A DNA stretch of 64,000 nt from Lentzea sp. NBRC 102530. GTDB lineage: Bacteria; Actinomycetota; Actinomycetes; Mycobacteriales; Pseudonocardiaceae. Under the pieces are notes generated by a model, which was not told the DNA's origin, searched no databases, and saw only the letters and a program-made list of their open reading frames with translations. The position numbers and the translations under genes were made by a program. The stretch is from the NCBI RefSeq assembly GCF_030269365.1, contig NZ_BSTF01000004.1, positions 62,001-126,000 of the forward strand, read 5' to 3'. Positions 20,708 to 64,000 of this stretch are shown here, piece by piece. Each line of letters opens with the position of its first letter. Position 1 is the stretch's first letter.

Positions 20708-21280
20708 ATGCGCACCCTGATCGCCACCGCGTTCATGTCTCTCGACGGCGTCATCGAGGCGCCCGGCGGCGAGCCCGGTCACCGCAGCTCCGGCTGGACG
20801 TTCAAGGACATCGAGTTCGACGAGGCCGCCTACGAGCTCAAGGGTCGTGAGCAGGACGAGGCCACCGCGATGATGATGGGCCGGGTCAGCTACGAGGGCT
20901 TCTCCCCGGTCTGGCCGACGCTCGACTACTTCCCGAAGTACAACGTGATGCCGAAGTTCGTCGTCTCCAGCACCCTCAAGGAGGACCAGCTGGTCGACAA
21001 CTGGGGCGACATCACGATCCTGCGTTCGCTGGACGACGTGGCCGCGCTGAAGGAGACCGAGGGCGGCCCGATCTCCATCCACGGCAGCGCGACGCTGAAC
21101 CGCAACCTGTCCGACGCCGGCCTGATCGACCGCTACCACCTGCTGGTGTTCCCGGTCCTGCTCGGCGCCGGCAAGCGCCTGTTCAGCGAGACCGACAAGG
21201 ACAAGCAGCTGCTCAAGGTCGTCGAGAGCGAGACCTACGGCAACGGCATCCAGAAGTTCGTCTACGACGTCGTGCGCTGA
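20708..21280 (+). CDS. Dihydrofolate reductase-like / RibD C-terminal domain protein
   Basis: 190 residues with ATG after GAGGAGA. The DHFR fold is shown by TAFMSLDGVIEAPGG at the N-terminus, MMMGRVSYEGF near 58, FVVSSTL near 86 and an IHGSATLNRNL segment near 124. This RibD-C family is common in actinomycetes and usually of unknown substrate; it probably uses NADPH. Monocistronic; the end overlaps a convergent transporter gene by 19 bases. Confidence 0.85.
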   Translation: MRTLIATAFMSLDGVIEAPGGEPGHRSSGWTFKDIEFDEAAYELKGREQDEATAMMMGRVSYEGFSPVWPTLDYFPKYNVMPKFVVSSTLKEDQLVDNWGDITILRSLDDVAALKETEGGPISIHGSATLNRNLSDAGLIDRYHLLVFPVLLGAGKRLFSETDKDKQLLKVVESETYGNGIQKFVYDVVR

Positions 21281-56260: not shown

Positions 56261-57201
56261 AGGCTGTCGTGCAACGAAGATACGGATCGGCGGTGTTCGG
56301 TGACCTCGACGTGCCTGTGCCTGGGAAGGGCGAGGTTCTGCTGGAGGTGCGGGCGGCGGGCGTTGACATGGGCGTCTGGCACATCCTCACCGGCAGGCCG
56401 TACCTGTTGCGGATCCTCGGTTTCGGGCTCCGCGCGCCGAAGTCGGTCGTGCCGGGACGCGACGTCGCCGGTGTCGTGCGGGAGGTCGGACCGGGAGTGA
56501 CCGAGTACGCGGTCGGCGACGAGGTGTTCGGCACGTGCGAGGGGTCGTTCGCCGAGTACGCCGTCGCTCCCGCCGCGAGGCTCGCCCGCAAACCGCACAA
56601 CCTCTCGTTCGCCGAGGCGGCCGCGGTGCCGATCTCAGGCGGAACGGCGCTGCAGGGCCTGCGCGAGGTCAAGGCGGGGCAACGGGTTCTGGTGCTCGGT
56701 GCGGGCGGGGGAGTCGGCTCGTACGGCGTGCAGATCGCCAAGGCGATGGGTGCGCACGTGACGGCCGTGTGCAGCACACGGAAGGTCGAACTGGCCAGGC
56801 GGCTCGGGGCGGACGAGGTCTTCGACCACACCGTCGCGGACTTCACCGGCACCTACGACCTGATTCTCGACTGCGGTGGCGCCAGGCCGTTCGGCAGGTT
56901 GCGGAAGGCGACCAACGACCGCGGCCGGATCGTGCTCGTCGGCGCGGAGACCGGCGGCAAGATCACCGGCGGCTTCCACAAGCTGATGGCCGCACCACTG
57001 CTGAACCTGTTCTCCTCCAAGAAGTTCGTCGCGCTGATGGCCTCCGAAAGCACCGACGTCTTCGACGAGCTGCGTGTGCTCGTCGAGAACGGCCAGGTCA
57101 AGCCCGCCGTCGACGAGGTCTTCCCGCTCTCGGAAGCGCTGAACGCGGTGGACCACGTCTACTCGCGACGGTCGGTCGGCAAGACGGTCGTCGCGATCTG
57201 A
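56257..57201 (+). CDS. Zinc-independent MDR (quinone oxidoreductase-like)
   Basis: 314 residues, GTGA coupled. GroES-like domain with VPVPGKGEVLLEVRAAGVDMGVW, GRDVAGVVREVG; Rossmann motif GAGGGVGSYGVQIAKAMGAHV near 147. It lacks the cysteine cluster of zinc alcohol dehydrogenases, as in quinone/enone reductases. Third gene of the HTH operon; ends inside the convergent amidohydrolase gene (43-base overlap). Confidence 0.85.
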   Translation: MKAVVQRRYGSAVFGDLDVPVPGKGEVLLEVRAAGVDMGVWHILTGRPYLLRILGFGLRAPKSVVPGRDVAGVVREVGPGVTEYAVGDEVFGTCEGSFAEYAVAPAARLARKPHNLSFAEAAAVPISGGTALQGLREVKAGQRVLVLGAGGGVGSYGVQIAKAMGAHVTAVCSTRKVELARRLGADEVFDHTVADFTGTYDLILDCGGARPFGRLRKATNDRGRIVLVGAETGGKITGGFHKLMAAPLLNLFSSKKFVALMASESTDVFDELRVLVENGQVKPAVDEVFPLSEALNAVDHVYSRRSVGKTVVAI

Positions 57202-58346
57202 CCACCGATCACCACGGTCCCAACGTGGTGCAACGCCGTGATGTCCCGCATGGGATCTCCCTGCACGGCGATCACATCCGCGTCCCAGCCGGGGCGCAGC
57301 ACCCCCTTGCTCACCCCCAACGCCCGCGCGGCCTGACTCGTGGCGCTCGCGAGCACCGCTGCGTTGGGCACGCCGGCGTCGACCATGTCGCCGAGGGCGT
57401 GAGCGGAGATCCCGTGCGCCTTGCCGGGGCCGATGCCACCGTCGGTCCCGGAGACGGTGCGCACGCCGTGGTCGAACATCCGGCCGACCGCGGCGATCTT
57501 GGCGGCGATGCTCATCCCCACGCGTTCGAACGCCTCCCTGATGTGGGGAGGCGGGGGAACCGTGGACCCGAGCGTGTGGCAGACGGCGATGTCGGCCTCC
57601 GCCAGGGCGTCCATCAGTTCGACGGGGACCACCATGCCCCCGCCGGACAGGCACGTGCAGTGCTCGACGCCGTCGACGCCCGCGGCCACGGCCCGCCGCA
57701 CGGCGGTGAGGCTGTGGGCGTGGGCGGTCACCGGGAGACCGAGCGAGTGGGCCTCCTCGACCACCACACGCAGTTCGTGCTCGGTGAACTGGCAGTCGTC
57801 GACGATCGTGCCGGGGGTGGCGAACCCGCCGCTGGCCATGATCTTGACGACGTCGACCCGGTGCTCCGCCCGTTCGCGCACGGCACGGCGGAGCGCCTCG
57901 TCGCCGGTCGCCTCCCCGCCCATCGACCAGCAGTGGCCGCGCGGGCTCGTGATGGGAGGCCCGGAGGCGAGGACGCGCTGCCGGTGCCGGTCGCGCTGGT
58001 TCGTCACCGCCCAGGAGCGGTCACCGAGGTCGCGCACGGTCGTGACGCCGGCTTCGAGGTGTTGGGCGAGGCCGTCCACGATCACCGAGTCCAGGTGTTC
58101 GGACGTGAACGACGGCAACCGGTCGAGGGCGTCGACGCTGTTGTCCCCGCACAGGTGGACGTGGGTGTCGATCAGTCCCGGTAGGACGGTGGCGGTGCCG
58201 AGGTCGACCACCTCGGCACCGGCGACGTCGGGACGCCCCTGCTCGACGGCCTTGATCTTCCCGTCCTCGGTGATGACCGTGACGGGCCCGGCGATCGACC
58301 TCTCACCGTCGAACGCACGCGCAGCACGCAGCGCCAGCATCGGCAC
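57159..58346 (-). CDS. Metal-dependent amidohydrolase (prolidase/imidazolonepropionase-like)
   Basis: 395 residues from GTG 58346 (ATG 58340 also likely). LPGLIDTHVHLCGDNS near 60 (HxH), a middle VVEEAHSLGLPVTAHAHSL near 211 with two metal histidines, VEHCTCLSGG, and VRTVSGTDGGIGPG near 303 with the aspartate. Typical of the Xaa-Pro dipeptidase/arginine carboxypeptidase group. Substrate unknown. May read into the ribA region (25 bases between its start and ribA's stop). Confidence 0.8.
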   Translation of the reverse strand: MPMLALRAARAFDGERSIAGPVTVITEDGKIKAVEQGRPDVAGAEVVDLGTATVLPGLIDTHVHLCGDNSVDALDRLPSFTSEHLDSVIVDGLAQHLEAGVTTVRDLGDRSWAVTNQRDRHRQRVLASGPPITSPRGHCWSMGGEATGDEALRRAVRERAEHRVDVVKIMASGGFATPGTIVDDCQFTEHELRVVVEEAHSLGLPVTAHAHSLTAVRRAVAAGVDGVEHCTCLSGGGMVVPVELMDALAEADIAVCHTLGSTVPPPPHIREAFERVGMSIAAKIAAVGRMFDHGVRTVSGTDGGIGPGKAHGISAHALGDMVDAGVPNAAVLASATSQAARALGVSKGVLRPGWDADVIAVQGDPMRDITALHHVGTVVIGGQIATTVLPTDRRE

Positions 58347-58371: not shown

Positions 58372-59010
58372 TCAACGGTCAGCGGCGTGCGGCAACGTGA
58401 AGGAGTCGACCTGCGGCAGGTCGTGACCGAGCCGGTCGCGCTTGGCCGTCAGGTACGCGATGTTGTGCTGGTTCGGCGTCATCAACGACGGCACGCGCGC
58501 TGTCACCGGAATGCCGTTGGACTCCAGCGCCGCGATCTTGTCCGGGTTGTTGGACATCAGCCGCACGGACTGCACGCGCAGATGCTTCAGCACGCGCGCG
58601 GCGGGCGTGTAGTCGCGGACGTCGACGGGCAGGCCGAGCGAGGTCGCCGAGTCCAACGTGTCCAGTCCCTCGTCCTGCAGCACGTGCGTCCGGATCTTCG
58701 CCACCAGCCCGATGCCGCGGCCCTCGTGCCCGCGCAGGTACACGAGGATGCCGCTGCCCTCCCGCACGATGGTGTTCAACGCCGCGTCGAGCTGCTCGCC
58801 GCACTCGCAGCGCATCGCCCCGAAGATGTCACCGGTCATGCACTCCGAGTGGATGCGCACGAGGACGTTCTCGCGCAGCTTCGTCTTGCCGTACACCAAA
58901 GCCATGTGTTCGCTGCCGTCCGCGCGGAACGCCACTGCGCGGAAAGTACCGCGGCGGGTCACCAGGTCGGACTCCGCCACGTCCTCGTCACTGAAGGCCT
59001 GTTCGAACAT
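58372..59010 (-). CDS. ribA: GTP cyclohydrolase II-family enzyme with His at the usual active-site Tyr
   Basis: 212 residues. Zinc cysteines C57, C68 and C70 (HSECMTGD, GAMRCECG), GTP-binding LRGHEGRGIGL near 92 and MSNNPDK near 155. In E. coli RibA a tyrosine (Y105, KIRAYALQD) helps release pyrophosphate and formate; here KIRTHVLQD has His109. A related Streptomyces homologue with Met in this place was reported to stop at a formamidopyrimidine (FAPy). Standalone (no RibB domain). Divergent to a QueD-like gene, so it probably feeds the following cluster rather than riboflavin. Confidence 0.85.
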   Translation of the reverse strand: MFEQAFSDEDVAESDLVTRRGTFRAVAFRADGSEHMALVYGKTKLRENVLVRIHSECMTGDIFGAMRCECGEQLDAALNTIVREGSGILVYLRGHEGRGIGLVAKIRTHVLQDEGLDTLDSATSLGLPVDVRDYTPAARVLKHLRVQSVRLMSNNPDKIAALESNGIPVTARVPSLMTPNQHNIAYLTAKRDRLGHDLPQVDSFTLPHAADR

Positions 59011-59092
59011 CTACGGTCCCCTTGTCACCTGGCGCCTTCCGAACGTGCAGCTACGCTCGGATGGAGGTCGCACCGTAACCCGACCGCACAGC

Positions 59093-59105
59093 GGAGGTCA
59101 TCCTG
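59093..59105 (+). promoter_or_regulatory. Strong Shine-Dalgarno before a CTG start codon
   Basis: GGAGG (59093-59097) with a five-base gap leads to CTG (59103-59105). No ATG, GTG or TTG lies in this frame until 59130, where the first strand of the domain would already be missing. Confidence 0.6.
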
Positions 59106-59513
59106 TTCAGCATCACCGTCCGCGATCACGTGATGATCGCGCACAGTTTCCGCGGCGAGGTCTTCGGTCCAGCACAACGTCTGCATGGAGCAACGTTCCT
59201 GGTGGACGCAACGTTCAAACGGACTGAGCTCGATTCGGACAACATCGTCGTCGACATCGGACTCGCCACCCAGGAGCTGAACAAGGTCCTGGCCGTCTTC
59301 AACTACCGCAACCTGGACGAAGAACCCCAGTTCGCGGGCATCAACACGTCCACGGAATGGCTCGCGAAGCACATCGCCGACCAGCTGGCGGACAAGATCG
59401 CCGAAGGCGCTCTCGGTGAGGGCGCTCACGGGATCGATGCGATCGCCGTCACACTCCACGAGTCGCACGTGGCGTGGGCGGGCTACGAACGTGCACTTCG
59501 TCCTTCCGGCTGA
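59103..59513 (+). CDS. PTPS/QueD-like (6-carboxytetrahydropterin synthase family) protein, non-canonical active site
   Basis: 136 residues if CTG 59103 is the start (product begins [16 protein letters not shown]); GTG 59130 would remove the first strand. Family pattern kept: VMIAHSFRG (zinc His14), RLHGATF (His28), [37 protein letters not shown] and [11 protein letters not shown]. The usual C-x-x-x-HGH has become A24-Q-R-L-H28-G-A30, so the catalytic Cys and one zinc His are lost and no cysteine is present in the protein. A changed reaction or no metal is likely. First of four plus-strand genes, 92 bases from divergent ribA. Confidence 0.75.
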
Positions 59514-60462
59514 CGTCGAGGACCCCGGCAGTCCCAGCGGCGGCAACGTCTACGACCTGCGCGTGAGCGCCGGCATGACCCGTGTGACCGTCGCTGGTGA
59601 CTGGCCGCGTCCAGCCGACCCCACCGCGTTGGAGCAAGCGCTTGCGGCCGTGCCGCACGGAGCCGTCGTGCTCCTCGACGGTCTCGTGAGCTGCGGACTA
59701 CCCGAAATCGTCGTGCCTCACACACGACGTCTGGAAGTCGCCGTCCTCGTCCACCTCCCGCTGGCCGACGAGACCGGGCTCGACCCCGCCACCGCCGCCC
59801 TCCTGGACGACAAGGAGGGGCAGGTCCTGCGGGCCGCGAGTGCGGTCATCGCGACCAGTCCGACGGCTGCGAGGAACATCGCCGAACGGCACGGGCTCAG
59901 CGAGGTCCACGTCGTCGTCCCCGGTACCGATCCAGCCCCGCTCGCCCACGGCACGGACGGTGTCCACCACCTGCTCTGCGTCGCGTCCATCACACCCCGC
60001 AAAGGCCACGACCTGCTGGTCAGAGCGTTGCGGCGGATCGAACGGGACTGGCGGCTGACCTGCGTCGGCCCGCACCGGCCGTTCCTGCGCGAACTCCCGC
60101 GCGACGACCGCGTCAGCTTCCCCGGCCCGCTCGCCGGCGAGGCTCTGGCCAGCGCTTATGCCAGCGCTGACCTCTTCGTGCTGGCCTCCCGCAACGAGAC
60201 GTACGGCATGGTCGTCACCGAGGCCCTCGCGCGCGGTCTGCCGGTCATCGCGAGCGCCGTTCCGGACGCGCTCGCCGACGGGGGTCTGCTGATCCCGGCC
60301 GGGGACGAAAATGCATTGGAAGCTGCACTGACGGGCTGGTTTCAAGATCAGGATCTGAGGGCCGAACTGCGGTCCAGAGCACTCGCCAGGCGGGCTCGAC
60401 TGTCCACTTGGGAACAATCCACAGAGGACCTGCGGAGGGTGCTGGCTACGCTCCGGCCATGA
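59491..60462 (+). CDS. GT4-family glycosyltransferase
   Basis: 323 residues from GTG 59491, overlapping the QueD-like gene by 23 bases. GT-B fold with an N-terminal GGNVYD segment, [23 protein letters not shown] near 165, and the C-terminal [20 protein letters not shown] near 244-263 (E-x7-E). Transfers a sugar from a nucleotide or phosphate donor. Its place between pterin-like and methyltransferase genes suggests a glycosylated product. Confidence 0.85.
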
Positions 60463-61238
60463 CCTTCGCCCCGGAATGGCTGGCACTGCGGGAGAACGCC
60501 GACGCACAGGCACGCTCGACCGAGCTCGCCGACGACGTCCGCGAAACTCTGGTGAACCGAAACCCCCTGACGATCCGTGACCTCGGTTGTGGCACGGGAT
60601 CGATGGGACGATGGCTCGCCGGCAGGCTCGGCGGCGTGCAGCACTGGGTGCTGCACGACCGCGACCCCCGGCTGCTCGGGCTGGCGGAGGCCAGCATGAG
60701 CGCGCTGCCGAACGTCACCGCCGAAACGCGTGAGGGCGACCTCACGTCCCTGAAAGCCGCCGACCTCGCGGGTGCTGACCTGGTCACTTGCTCCGCACTG
60801 CTCGACTTGCTCACCACTGACGAGATGAACGCTCTGGCGGTTGCATGCGTAGAAGCACATGTGCCCGCTCTGTTCACGCTCTCGGTGGCAGGCCGGATCG
60901 ACATCGATCCGGCCGAGCCGCTCGACGCCGCCTTCCAGGACGCGTTCAACGCTCACCAGCGCCGCGTCGTGGACGGACGTCGTCTGCTCGGACCTGACGC
61001 ACCAGCCGCTGCTGAAGAGGCGTTCGTCGCGGCAGGCGCTTCGGTTCGGACGGCTTCGAGCCCCTGGCGCATGAATGGCGACGCCCTGCAGCGGGAATGG
61101 CTGAAGGGCTGGGTCGGTGCCGCGGTGGAGCAGGAACCCGCACTCGCCTCCGAGGCCTCCGAGTACCTGCGCCGCAGGTCAACAGCCTCCGCGGTGGTCC
61201 ACCACGTCGACCTGCTGGCACTACCGGGAGCTGTGTGA
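60459..61238 (+). CDS. Class I SAM-dependent methyltransferase
   Basis: 259 residues, ATGA coupled to the glycosyltransferase. Motif I IRDLGCGTGSMGRWL near 39, then a D in VLHDRDPR near 62 and LTSLKAADL. The C-terminal half resembles small-molecule methyltransferases. Likely methylates the cluster product. Stop overlaps the next gene. Confidence 0.85.
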   Translation: MTFAPEWLALRENADAQARSTELADDVRETLVNRNPLTIRDLGCGTGSMGRWLAGRLGGVQHWVLHDRDPRLLGLAEASMSALPNVTAETREGDLTSLKAADLAGADLVTCSALLDLLTTDEMNALAVACVEAHVPALFTLSVAGRIDIDPAEPLDAAFQDAFNAHQRRVVDGRRLLGPDAPAAAEEAFVAAGASVRTASSPWRMNGDALQREWLKGWVGAAVEQEPALASEASEYLRRRSTASAVVHHVDLLALPGAV

Positions 61239-62200
61239 TGAAGAAGTTCTGGCCTTGGCTTCGCCTGCTGCTGGCGGCCGGGATCCTCGTGGCGCTGGGC
61301 GTTCGCCTGGGCACCGGGGCGTTCCTCGACGGACTGCGCGCCATCGACGCGTTCTCCGTCACCGCCGCGCTGGCGATCGGGCTCGTGACGACGGTGCTCA
61401 GCGCGGGTCGCTGGGTCCTCGTCGCGCGCCGCCTCGGCCTGCCGCTGACCCTGAGGACCGCGGTCAGCGACTACTACCGCGCCCAGCTCGTCAACGCCGT
61501 GCTGCCCGCCGGCGTGCTCGGCGACGTGCACCGCGCGGTCAACCACGGCCGGGAGTCCGGTGACGTCGGACGGGGCGTGCGCGCCGTGTTCTTCGAGCGC
61601 ATGGCCGGCCAGGTCGTGCTCATCGGGATCGGGCTCGCGGTGCTGCTCACGCACCCCGCGCCCGGCCTCGACCTCGAGCTCAGCGGCACCACCGTCGCCG
61701 CGATCCTCGCCGGTCTGGCCATCGCCGTCGTGATCGGCTGGAACGTCCGGCCGGTGCGGAAGGCCCTGGTCAACACCCTGGCCGACGGCATCAGGCTGCT
61801 GTCGTTCAAGACGTGGCCCGCGGTCATCGGACTGTCGGCCGCGACGGTCGCCGGGTACGTGGCGATGTTCCTGGTGGCCGCCCGCGCCGCCGGGTCGGAC
61901 GCCACGGTGACCCAGCTCGCGCCGGTCGTCGTGCTGGCGCTGCTGATCATGGCGATCCCGGTCAACATCGGCGGCTTCGGCCCGCGCGAGGCGTTCCTCG
62001 CGGTGGCGTTCGGTGCCGCCGGTCTCGGCGCCGCGCAGGGGTTCACCACGGGCATCGTCTACGGCGTGCTGGCGCTCATCGCCGCACTGCCCGGCGCGGT
62101 CGTGCTCTTCCTGTCACGCCGTGCCGGGACGGAAGAGGTCCAGGTAGTGGCGGAACGAGTCGACGAGTCCCGTGAGCAGGAGCTCGCCCTTGCGCGCTGA
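61238..62200 (+). CDS. Lysylphosphatidylglycerol synthase TM region-like (UPF0104) membrane protein
   Basis: 320 residues with about eight transmembrane helices; no catalytic GNAT domain is present. YRAQLVNAVLPAGVLGDVHRAV near 82-103 and IPVNIGGFGPREAFLAVAF near 246-264 are the family's conserved loops. Such proteins act in lipid or glycolipid flipping or synthesis. Coupled to the methyltransferase. Ends 87 bases inside the convergent creatininase gene. Confidence 0.82.
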   Translation: MKKFWPWLRLLLAAGILVALGVRLGTGAFLDGLRAIDAFSVTAALAIGLVTTVLSAGRWVLVARRLGLPLTLRTAVSDYYRAQLVNAVLPAGVLGDVHRAVNHGRESGDVGRGVRAVFFERMAGQVVLIGIGLAVLLTHPAPGLDLELSGTTVAAILAGLAIAVVIGWNVRPVRKALVNTLADGIRLLSFKTWPAVIGLSAATVAGYVAMFLVAARAAGSDATVTQLAPVVVLALLIMAIPVNIGGFGPREAFLAVAFGAAGLGAAQGFTTGIVYGVLALIAALPGAVVLFLSRRAGTEEVQVVAERVDESREQELALAR

Positions 62201-62809
62201 CGCGAGGGACGGACGCCCGATGACGCCGGAGGACGTGTACGGCGCCAGACCGAGGGTGAGCATGTGCCGCCGGTCCTCAGCCAGGTGATCAGCGGTTTCG
62301 TAGCCGGGACGGATCAGATCGGGGTGGGCGTGCAGCAGGATCGAGGTCTCCAGCTCGCCCGCGTGCATGTCGCTGTACGCCGAGGTCTCGATGCCGGCCT
62401 TCTCCCGCGCGAACGCCCAGTCGTCCCGGCCGGGGAACAGCGCCAGCCCCTCGCCCTCCTGCACGACGTTCGACAGCACGTAGTTGCCGCCGTGGCCGTT
62501 GACCAGCACGACGTGCGTGACTCCCGTGCGCCGCAGGGACTCGGCGATGTCGTCGACGACTGAGATCAACGTGCGCGCGGAGATGCTGACGGTGCCCGGC
62601 CAGCCGGCGTGCTCCTGCGAACACGAGAACTGGATCGGCGGCAGCAGGCGGACCTCGTCGTACCGCTCGGCGATCGCCGACGCGATGGTCCACGCGATCA
62701 CCGAGTCCGTCGCCAGCGGCAGGTGCGGGCCGTGCTGCTCGGTGCTGCCGACCGGGAGCACGGCCACGCTCTTACCGCGGACGTCGACCGTGGTGTCACT
62801 CGGAAACAT
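62114..62809 (-). CDS. Creatininase family amidohydrolase (MftE/ArfB-like)
   Basis: 231 residues from ATG 62809 (AGG upstream; the TTG 62827 frame is less likely). Metal motifs LPVGSTEQHGPHLPLATDS near 19-37, VLVNGHGGNY near 97, and SDMHAGELETS near 136. This superfamily includes the FAPy deformylase ArfB of archaeal riboflavin synthesis, MftE and creatininase. Beside a RibA that may make FAPy, a deformylase role is a reasonable guess. Overlaps the dehydrogenase stop by 14 bases. Confidence 0.82.
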   Translation of the reverse strand: MFPSDTTVDVRGKSVAVLPVGSTEQHGPHLPLATDSVIAWTIASAIAERYDEVRLLPPIQFSCSQEHAGWPGTVSISARTLISVVDDIAESLRRTGVTHVVLVNGHGGNYVLSNVVQEGEGLALFPGRDDWAFAREKAGIETSAYSDMHAGELETSILLHAHPDLIRPGYETADHLAEDRRHMLTLGLAPYTSSGVIGRPSLASARKGELLLTGLVDSFRHYLDLFRPGTA

Positions 62810-63773
62810 GGTCCTGACCGTAGTCAATGCGGTGGCACAGCGCCGGAATCTCCCCGTCGGCCAGTTTCGGCATGACCTCGGGCAGTTCCTCGAACGGGCT
62901 GTGGCCCGTGATGAGCGCGTCGAACCTGGCGTCGGCCAGCAGGTCGAGCGCGACGGCCATGCGTTCGCCGTAGGTGCGGTCGGGACGGCCGACGACGCCG
63001 ACCTGGCTGCTGCGGATCGTGAGCCGCCGCGAGTGGAAGAACTCGCCCAGCGGTACGGAGATCCTGCGGTCCCCGTACCAGCTCAGCTCGACCACCCTGC
63101 CCTCCGGCGCGAGCAGGTTCAGCGCGGTGGACAGACCCGCCTCGGTCGCACTGGCGTGGAAGACCAGATCGCACCCGTCGAGGGCGTTGCCCGGGAGTGC
63201 GAAGCCGACGCCGAGCTTCCGGGCGACTTCCTCGCGCGCGGGGTCGGCGTCCACGAGCTCGACGCGGGCTCCGGGGAACGTCGCGAGCACCGCCGCGATG
63301 CTCGACCCGACCATGCCGCCACCGACCACCGCGATCCGGTCACCGATCAACGGCCGTGCGTCCCACACGGCGTTCACCGCGGTCTCGACGGTGCCCGCCA
63401 GCACCGCGCGTCCGGCCGGAACCGCCTCCGGCACGAGCGTGACCGACGTTTCCGGGACGACGTACCGGGTCTGATGTGGATAGAGGCAGAACACGGTGCG
63501 GCCCTTGAGGTCCCCGTTCTGCACGACGCCCACGTTGAGGTAGCCGTACTTCACCGGCCACGGGAAGTCGCCCTCCTGGAACGGCGCGCGCATCACCGCG
63601 TACTGGTTCTCCGGCACGCCACCGCGGAACACGAGCGTCTCCGTGCCGCGGCTCACCCCCGAGAACAGCGTGCGCACCTCGACCTCACCGGGACCGGGCT
63701 CGGCCAGTGTGACCTGCCGAACTTCCCCTTTTCCGGATTCATTGAGCCAAAAGGCACTCGCCGTACGTGTCAC
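62796..63773 (-). CDS. MDR dehydrogenase (zinc-binding alcohol dehydrogenase-like)
   Basis: 325 residues, GTG with GGAGG eight bases upstream. GroES-like N-terminus with GVSRGTETLVFRG, no Cys-Glu-His catalytic zinc set, Rossmann motif VVGGGMVGSSIAAV near 149 and a closing HSPFEELPEVM. Similar to sorbitol/threonine and chlorophyllide-modifying (BchC-like) dehydrogenases. Divergent to the CDP-alcohol transferase gene with 41 bases between the starts. Confidence 0.8.
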   Translation of the reverse strand: MTRTASAFWLNESGKGEVRQVTLAEPGPGEVEVRTLFSGVSRGTETLVFRGGVPENQYAVMRAPFQEGDFPWPVKYGYLNVGVVQNGDLKGRTVFCLYPHQTRYVVPETSVTLVPEAVPAGRAVLAGTVETAVNAVWDARPLIGDRIAVVGGGMVGSSIAAVLATFPGARVELVDADPAREEVARKLGVGFALPGNALDGCDLVFHASATEAGLSTALNLLAPEGRVVELSWYGDRRISVPLGEFFHSRRLTIRSSQVGVVGRPDRTYGERMAVALDLLADARFDALITGHSPFEELPEVMPKLADGEIPALCHRIDYGQDHVSE

Positions 63774-63814
63774 TCACAACACCTCCGCCGCACGAAGTTC
63801 GTTAGGGGCACCTG

Positions 63815-64000
63815 ATGATCACACTTCAGCACACCAGGACGGCACCCGTCCTGCGGGAGCCTGCCATCTGGGCCGGGTTCCAGGTCCTCGCGCTGGCCGT
63901 GGTCGGTGCCACCGCCGGTCTCGGCCCGCTCGGCTGGGCCGCCGGTCTCGCCTACGGCTTCGCCACCTGGGCGTTCCTCGGCTACGGCATGCAGCGCCAC
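63815..64000 (+). CDS. Probable CDP-alcohol phosphatidyltransferase, cut by window end
   Basis: ATG 63815 with AGGGG six bases upstream; 62 residues seen, open at the right edge. Only two hydrophobic helices of the N-terminus are visible, and the diagnostic DGx2ARx8Gx3Dx3D motif would lie beyond the window. The assignment comes from the start pattern (MITLQHTRTAPV, then a Gly/Ala helix and FLGYGMQRH) and from the lipid-type partners in the cluster, so it is tentative. Confidence 0.5.
   Translation, partial: MITLQHTRTAPVLREPAIWAGFQVLALAVVGATAGLGPLGWAAGLAYGFATWAFLGYGMQRH

Follow-up and report, generated by a model that had tools for sequence, protein, structure and literature searches.

Which compound is made by a block of biosynthetic genes in the actinomycete Lentzea sp. 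NBRC 102530 that opens with a paralogue of the riboflavin enzyme GTP cyclohydrolase II (GCH II, RibA) and continues with a pterin-type protein, sugar and methyl transferases and several membrane proteins? The block lies at the end of the window, by which we mean the whole 64,000-nt stretch of DNA analysed here (contig NZ_BSTF01000004.1, positions 62,001 to 126,000 of the forward strand). On balance, we favour a conserved actinomycete pathway in which GTP would be converted into a diaminopyrimidine or pterin compound that is handed to the membrane, a judgement that rests on the opening part of the pathway. In this opening, GCH II likely stops at FAPy, the ring-opened product in which the formyl group is retained, and a creatininase-family protein encoded nearby would deformylate it, because GCH II proteins of this variant type and the creatininase co-occur. 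The window stops inside the gene block, and the genes were therefore followed into the genome stretch that continues past the window end (L004). They are (+ and −, strand):

58372-59010, −: GCH II (RibA) paralogue (PF00925, 200 bits; NF001591 and TIGR00505 over cut-off; aligned to 2bz0)
59103/59130-59513, +: PTPS-fold (T-fold) protein (PF01242, 76 bits; 3d7j, E 2.4e-59)
59491-60462, start GTG, +: glycosyltransferase of the GT4 family (PF13692, 94 bits)
60459-61238, start ATG, +: class I S-adenosylmethionine-dependent methyltransferase (PF13649, 37 bits; no NCBIfam match)
61238-62200, start ATG, +: integral membrane protein, LPG_synthase_TM/MprF-flippase-like (PF03706, 106 bits)
62114-62827, start probably ATG 62809, −: creatininase-family amidohydrolase (PF02633, 211 bits)
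62796-63773, −: medium-chain dehydrogenase, BchC-like (PF00107, 34.5 bits; TIGR01202 below cut-off)
63815-64549 (L004:8815-9549), +, ending past the window: CDP-alcohol phosphotransferase (PF01066, 51.5 bits)
L004, past the window end: small DoxX-type protein
L004:9924-10586, −, outside the window: RibD_C reductase, 220 aa (PF01872, 126 bits)
L004:10665-12245, +, outside the window: LtaS-like protein of the sulfatase/LtaS superfamily (fold match)

All genes named in the original prediction, from GCH II to the CDP-alcohol phosphotransferase, were recovered in place by family-model matches, and the block extends beyond the window and is larger than that prediction had seen. Its description of two coupled, facing blocks can also be read from the sequence. 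The four + genes for the PTPS-fold protein, glycosyltransferase, methyltransferase and LPG_synthase_TM protein overlap end to start, with the glycosyltransferase start inside the PTPS end and with stop/start overlaps of ATGA (60459-60462, glycosyltransferase/methyltransferase) and TGATG (61236-61240, methyltransferase/LPG_synthase_TM). On the − strand, the start of the creatininase gene is overlapped by the dehydrogenase gene, and this block converges on the + block. Given the end-to-start overlaps, translation is probably coupled within each block. A scan for promoters and terminators gave none.

Is this set of genes a unit? Searches were confined to Actinomycetota. In an even sample of 394 genomes of the class, own genome included, PTPS homologues were found in 58 (26 of 138 genera), the weakest match (G051, 31% identity) later proving to be of a sister type described below. 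A wider contig search with the PTPS protein yielded 195 relatives, and the best 80 comprised 20 Lentzea loci (L035-L054; PTPS identity 93-97%) and 60 further loci (L055-L114). The Lentzea loci were kept out of the neighbour counts; in every one of them the genes run from RibA through to the LtaS-like protein, although a contig end truncates that last gene in one case. These counts cover 119 loci: the window's own, the 60 further loci and 58 class-sample stretches (L115-L172), with no near-identical stretch common to the latter two samples. The PTPS gene is accompanied by the dehydrogenase in 112 loci, the glycosyltransferase in 107, the CDP-alcohol phosphotransferase in 100, and the methyltransferase and the LPG_synthase_TM protein in 97 each; RibA (89), creatininase (61, one a fragment), RibD_C (60), the LtaS-like protein (43) and the DoxX-type protein (13) are rarer. 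Because these neighbours recur across the loci, the gene block is a real, conserved unit, beyond chance, and because their order and orientation differ among loci, mere common descent of a chromosomal segment is a poor explanation for the set. The co-conservation on which the original prediction of a GTP-derived biosynthetic locus depended was thus looked for and found. Clustering of the other predicted neighbours revealed no extra family in more than 14 loci, these families being taken without a Pfam scan.

A tyrosine at what we call the switch position allows GCH II to remove the formyl group. Spoonamore and co-workers reportedly found in 2006 that SCO6655 of Streptomyces coelicolor releases FAPy, since this tyrosine is replaced by Met120. 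The window GCH II belongs to the RibA family and keeps all three zinc cysteines (Cys at the three columns in 63 of the 63 loci read), and its alignment with the Escherichia coli enzyme (2bz0) places a histidine at the switch (KIRTHVLQD versus KIRAYALQD). With no tyrosine at this position, it is classed by its sequence as a GCH II-family variant rather than as a riboflavin RibA, and is predicted to make FAPy with the formyl group kept; a separate RibBA with tyrosine at the switch is encoded in the same genome. The 89 cluster GCH II proteins divide into 62 of the non-Tyr type (28 Met, 20 His, 11 Leu and 3 Gln) and 27 of the Tyr type.

A retained formyl group raises the question of which enzyme would remove it. 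The creatininase-family protein, the only PF02633 match found in its genome, keeps the motifs EQH..TD, NGHGGN and DMHAGE, as do the 60 creatininase rows aligned, and thus the residues E, H, D, H and E that we take to be the metal ligands of the family. It scores below the cut-offs of the creatininase, MftE and ArfB models (ArfB NF033501, 34 versus 180 bits). A creatininase gene lies in 60 of the 62 non-Tyr loci versus none of the 27 Tyr loci. Of the two misses, one is at a contig end (L076), and in the other (L149) the gene is 3.5 kb outside the stretch (G384; seen again in L224). These raw counts are not our main argument, because the loci are not independent and the GCH II tree contains one change only.

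A better comparison is offered by a tree of the cluster core (dehydrogenase plus PTPS, 111 rows, leaving out L065, L092, L094, L098-L100, L110 and L166, which do not have the full pair) and by the 92 loci with full flanks, i.e. at least 7 kb either side of PTPS. Across these 92, non-Tyr GCH II and creatininase agree in every case (58 with both, 34 with neither) when the outlying creatininase of L149 is counted, and in 91 when it is not. On the core tree, the two characters change 8 times each; there are 8 contrasts over all branches and 4 independent ones on well-supported branches, all 4 in the same direction. Six control genes agree far less often with the non-Tyr type (RibD_C 36, LtaS-like 38, CDP-alcohol phosphotransferase 62, methyltransferase 64, GT4 64 and LPG_synthase_TM 65 of 92), and they show no difference in any of the four supported contrasts; creatininase scored against the presence of any GCH II agrees in only 73 of the 92. 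The link of the creatininase is therefore to the switch type, not to the completeness of the cluster.

The cluster GCH II and the creatininase are both present in the Saccharopolyspora loci L068 and L096, and their losses go together in L073 and L112: neither genome yielded a cluster-type GCH II, while the creatininase survives as fragments only in that of L073, and in that of L112 a cluster-like creatininase is spread over two reading frames at another site (L223:9607-10300). Both are also missing near L134, L143 and L162; each of these genomes has a single GCH II match, lying in a long frame like that of RibBA, and no creatininase match above 82 bits. Six Amycolatopsis loci (L069, L074, L077, L084, L085 and L089) keep only the CDP-alcohol phosphotransferase, dehydrogenase, PTPS and methyltransferase genes. 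Their genomes encode a separate Tyr-type GCH II (L216-L221, at about 9.8-10.5 kb) with no other cluster gene in the 20 kb stretch around it, and the creatininases that they contain are distant ones (best match 108 bits).

Several points weigh against the pathway that we favour. The link between GCH II and creatininase is perfect in the 92 loci but is not statistically closed: a sign test on the four supported contrasts gives p 0.125 and cannot reach 0.05, a single switch change suffices on the GCH II tree, so that the non-Tyr type has a single origin, and both trees were built quickly, SH-aLRT values being their only measure of support. The best named model for the creatininase is MftE (144 bits versus a cut-off of 172). 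FAPy release has reportedly been shown for Met at the switch in SCO6655 only, making His, Leu and Gln an extrapolation. Steps 1 and 3 of the proposed pathway do not go with the cluster in all lineages, as GCH II is missing nearby in 30 of the 119 loci and RibD_C in 59, and the RibD_C protein is very divergent in Streptomyces. Lastly, the glycosyltransferase, the methyltransferase and the CDP-alcohol protein could not be placed in any specific family.

What would follow deformylation is suggested by the RibD_C protein, for which the role of an ArfC-like reductase, making a ribityl compound, has in our view an even chance, because of its family and because RibA and RibD_C are joined in single open reading frames in the most divergent loci (L168, L171, L172 and L254, the last with both Pfam domains). 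PF01872 is the only Pfam match of this 220-aa protein, a deaminase domain not being matched, and the best of the seven NCBIfam models matched is the archaeal TIGR01508 (ArfC; 119 bits versus a cut-off of 186). Its Protein Data Bank (PDB) matches are headed by 5xv5 ('Conserved protein') and three near-copies, followed by 6p8c, 7lrh and 2azn, with titles naming a pyrimidine reductase, RibD and a uracil reductase. Nine further RibD_C matches occur in the genome, one of them near RibBA on contig C10, which makes it probable that the cluster has a dedicated copy. A RibD_C-domain gene also occurs within the window at 20711-21253 (G000:C4:82711-83253, 104 bits), about 37 kb from the cluster.

The PTPS-fold protein matches the structure of SCO6650 (3d7j) over nearly its whole length (E 2.4e-59). 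Its listed start is GTG 59130; the conserved N-terminus FS(I/V)TVRDH begins at CTG 59103, which may be the real start codon. It scores 33 bits with the QueD model (cut-off 89), and at what we take to be the zinc-histidine positions of the PTPS family it has His, His and Ala (HGAT) rather than three histidines. The structure study of SCO6650 is said to have found zinc and the catalytic triad missing and the PTPS reaction not catalysed, and to have suggested that the protein could bind a pterin-like compound. In five Streptomyces loci (L065, L094, L098, L099 and L100), a PTPS gene of the same type stands alone, the 10 kb around it giving no match to the rest of the cluster.

A search of 396 phylum genomes with the dehydrogenase, which gave 46 genomes with a match of E 1e-20 or better, led to the sister loci, 16 of the more distant places (L245-L260). 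PTPS lies beside the dehydrogenase in 12 of them (L253, L258, L259 and L260 are without it); all 12 carry RibD_C, and 11 carry a GT4 match above 100 bits, that of L247 lying near a contig end. The sister PTPS proteins have His, His and His in 10 of 10 aligned rows, and those of the kind found in L245-L251 share the motifs FGPA..HG and YR(N/D)L with the window type. Five sister loci have a GCH II, each of the Tyr type by eye, and a creatininase was matched in none of the 16. As the sister loci keep both the core genes and the three histidines, the dehydrogenase-PTPS-GT4-RibD_C core looks old and the loss of the third histidine looks secondary. A FolB-type gene is found near the core in five of the seven loci L245-L251 (L245, L246, L249, L250 and L251; Pfam on the L245 copy), a weak hint of pterin chemistry. 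L245-L249 and L251 also have a nearby member of a family that resembles PlsC-type acyltransferases, by a Pfam match of the L251 copy.

Methylation, glycosylation and lipid attachment of the product are suggested by the family names of the remaining enzymes. The AlphaFold model of the methyltransferase (pLDDT 95) has a generic methyltransferase fold, and the CDP-alcohol phosphotransferase keeps the motif of its family, DxxDGxxAR..GxxxDxxxD, in 100 rows. A sequence search of the PDB with the LtaS-like protein found nothing up to E 1. The model of its Lentzea homologue in L035 (pLDDT 83) has LtaP (4uop; E 3e-11, TM 0.41/0.51, 13% identity) as top Foldseek match, followed by LtaS, MCR-1, EptA and GacH, to name some, with arylsulfatases lower down. 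By its modelled fold, this 'sulfatase' neighbour is thus a phospho-alcohol transferase, and its N-terminal helices look membrane-spanning. Owing to this fold and to the CDP-alcohol phosphotransferase being present in 100 of the 119 loci, the product may be attached to or displayed at the membrane, a suggestion that we make tentatively.

Taken together, the pathway is envisaged as follows. A GCH II lacking the switch tyrosine would open GTP while the formyl group stays in place, giving FAPy, and the creatininase-family protein would act as the FAPy deformylase, giving the diaminopyrimidine APy. The RibD_C protein would subsequently reduce the ribosyl to a ribityl group without deamination, like the archaeal ArfC, so that the 2-amino group of guanine is retained. 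The PTPS-fold protein may bind the resulting compound or a pterin derived from it and, together with the BchC-like dehydrogenase, may build its ring or side chain, with a sugar provided by the GT4 enzyme and a methyl group by the methyltransferase. Finally, and with less to go on, the CDP-alcohol phosphotransferase, the LPG-type protein and the LtaS-like transferase could attach or display the product, or a phospho-alcohol portion of it, on the outward-facing side of the membrane. In lineages with a Tyr-type GCH II (Micromonosporaceae and others), this enzyme would carry out the first two steps alone and the creatininase would not be kept. Taken to its end, this would give a new class of actinomycete compound displayed at the membrane, a glycosylated and methylated molecule that is either a non-deaminated ribityl-diaminopyrimidine or an N8-ribityl pterin. 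The CDP-alcohol phosphotransferase would join its ribityl phosphate to a lipid, the LPG-type and LtaS-like proteins would then flip or transfer it, and in differentiated mycelium it might serve redox or signalling functions of the envelope; this full picture is speculative and we consider it unlikely to hold in all its parts.

Other explanations agree with parts of these data. The first three steps could proceed as proposed and lead to a soluble, exported glycoside, with the membrane genes serving solely for export or for some unrelated step at the envelope. In line with this idea, to which we give a minor though real share of belief, no more than 43 of the 119 loci have the LtaS-like gene nearby, and LPG_synthase_TM proteins are flippase-like; it is harder to square with the CDP-alcohol phosphotransferase, which is about as frequent a neighbour as the methyltransferase. 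An improbable alternative is a folate-side pterin pathway, in which PTPS uses dihydroneopterin made by FolE, and GCH II, creatininase and RibD_C either provide some other building block or have a loose connection with the pathway. It draws on the PTPS family itself and the three zinc histidines of all 10 sister rows, the FolB-type gene beside the sister core and the 30 PTPS genes without a nearby GCH II. Set against these are the Ala at the third zinc position of the window-type PTPS and the reported inactivity of SCO6650 as a PTPS; moreover, FolB may be a mere adjoining folate gene, and no FolE-like protein was noticed among the recurring other neighbours, inspected by eye without a family scan.

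The creatininase, in turn, might act on another substrate (the final product or, like MftE, a peptide), its link to GCH II being historical. This would suit MftE as the best named model and the single origin of the non-Tyr clade, and we regard it as quite improbable: the agreement is with the non-Tyr type rather than with GCH II as such, and the two genes are repeatedly lost together. The mycofactocin reading itself was rejected, since the MftE score remains below cut-off and no mftC was found over cut-off in the own genome. Least probable in our estimation is an accessory supply of riboflavin or FO, whereby the locus would only raise the pool of flavin precursors. The three enzymes do fit the archaeal riboflavin opening, and APy is a riboflavin intermediate; yet RibBA and a RibD_C protein are encoded close together on contig C10, the cluster RibD_C protein has no deaminase domain, and the PTPS-fold protein, GT4, CDP-alcohol protein and LtaS-like transferase would be left unexplained. 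We rejected riboflavin supply as the main role on the first two of these grounds.

How does the pathway proposed here, with its FAPy-forming GCH II and creatininase, relate to known systems? The region SCO6648-SCO6655 of S. coelicolor is presumably the same locus, because SCO6650 matches the window PTPS and because the order PTPS, GT4, methyltransferase, LPG_synthase_TM, creatininase and RibA seen in L115 and L117 would, as six consecutive genes, end at SCO6655. Assignments within it other than SCO6650 and SCO6655 follow from this order. It differs from the window in gene order and presumably in its switch residue, Met in SCO6655 versus His in Lentzea. The archaeal opening of riboflavin and FO synthesis (ArfA, ArfB and ArfC) comprises the same three reactions as predicted here, namely FAPy formation, deformylation and reduction before deamination. 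Its first enzyme is a GCH III, however, whereas here it is a GCH II variant, our creatininase is far below the ArfB model, and no deaminase domain was found in the scanned cluster proteins. QueD and PTPS proteins have the T-fold and PF01242 in common with the window protein, which differs in the third zinc histidine and in its QueD score. With the LtaS, GacH and EptA transferases, the LtaS-like neighbour has its modelled fold in common, at low sequence similarity (13% to LtaP).

Pieces of this system were known earlier (the SCO6650 structure 3d7j and, reportedly, the FAPy-forming SCO6655), and the gene order was known piecemeal. The original prediction knew of no described product; none was found for this gene order in the open-licence literature, which is no proof, as subscription papers were mostly outside its scope. 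Clusters for GTP-derived heterocycles are likewise known. What is new is that the pathway putatively opens in archaeal style with a GCH II variant and a creatininase and goes on to steps of a membrane type, and this two-enzyme opening refines the original prediction. SCO6650 and SCO6655, separate puzzles so far, thereby receive one explanation from their co-occurrence, with the creatininase as the missing partner, and the open question is reduced to a two-enzyme assay. If the later steps are true, an envelope compound derived from GTP has gone undescribed in actinomycetes although it is common among them (58 of the 394 sampled genomes).

A parallel is provided by BrbF (SMc02977) of Sinorhizobium meliloti, a creatininase-family protein that is described as deformylating FAPy, the enzyme making FAPy there being unknown (PMC9478397). 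BrbF serves riboflavin, and the likeness to our protein is by that description; here, a likely FAPy-forming enzyme has its gene in one cluster with that of a predicted formamidase of the creatininase family, a combination lacking in the BrbF work (PMC9478397). On expression, an S. coelicolor study lists log2 changes of 0.8, 4.3 and 4.1 at 24, 48 and 72 h (second versus first mycelium) for SCO6652, inferred from gene order to be the methyltransferase and the one gene of SCO6648-SCO6655 that our searches turned up in it (PMC3610822). In another study, SCO6655 is among the genes anticorrelated with predicted flux; this was dropped as a sign of a non-riboflavin role, since SCO2687, another GCH II, is in the same table (PMC2853524).

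One more gene adjoins the GCH II gene within the window:

57159-58346, −: amidohydrolase (PF01979, 136 bits)

It was rejected as a member of the system, being near PTPS in 2 of the 119 loci (the window's own and L055), and probably lies outside it.

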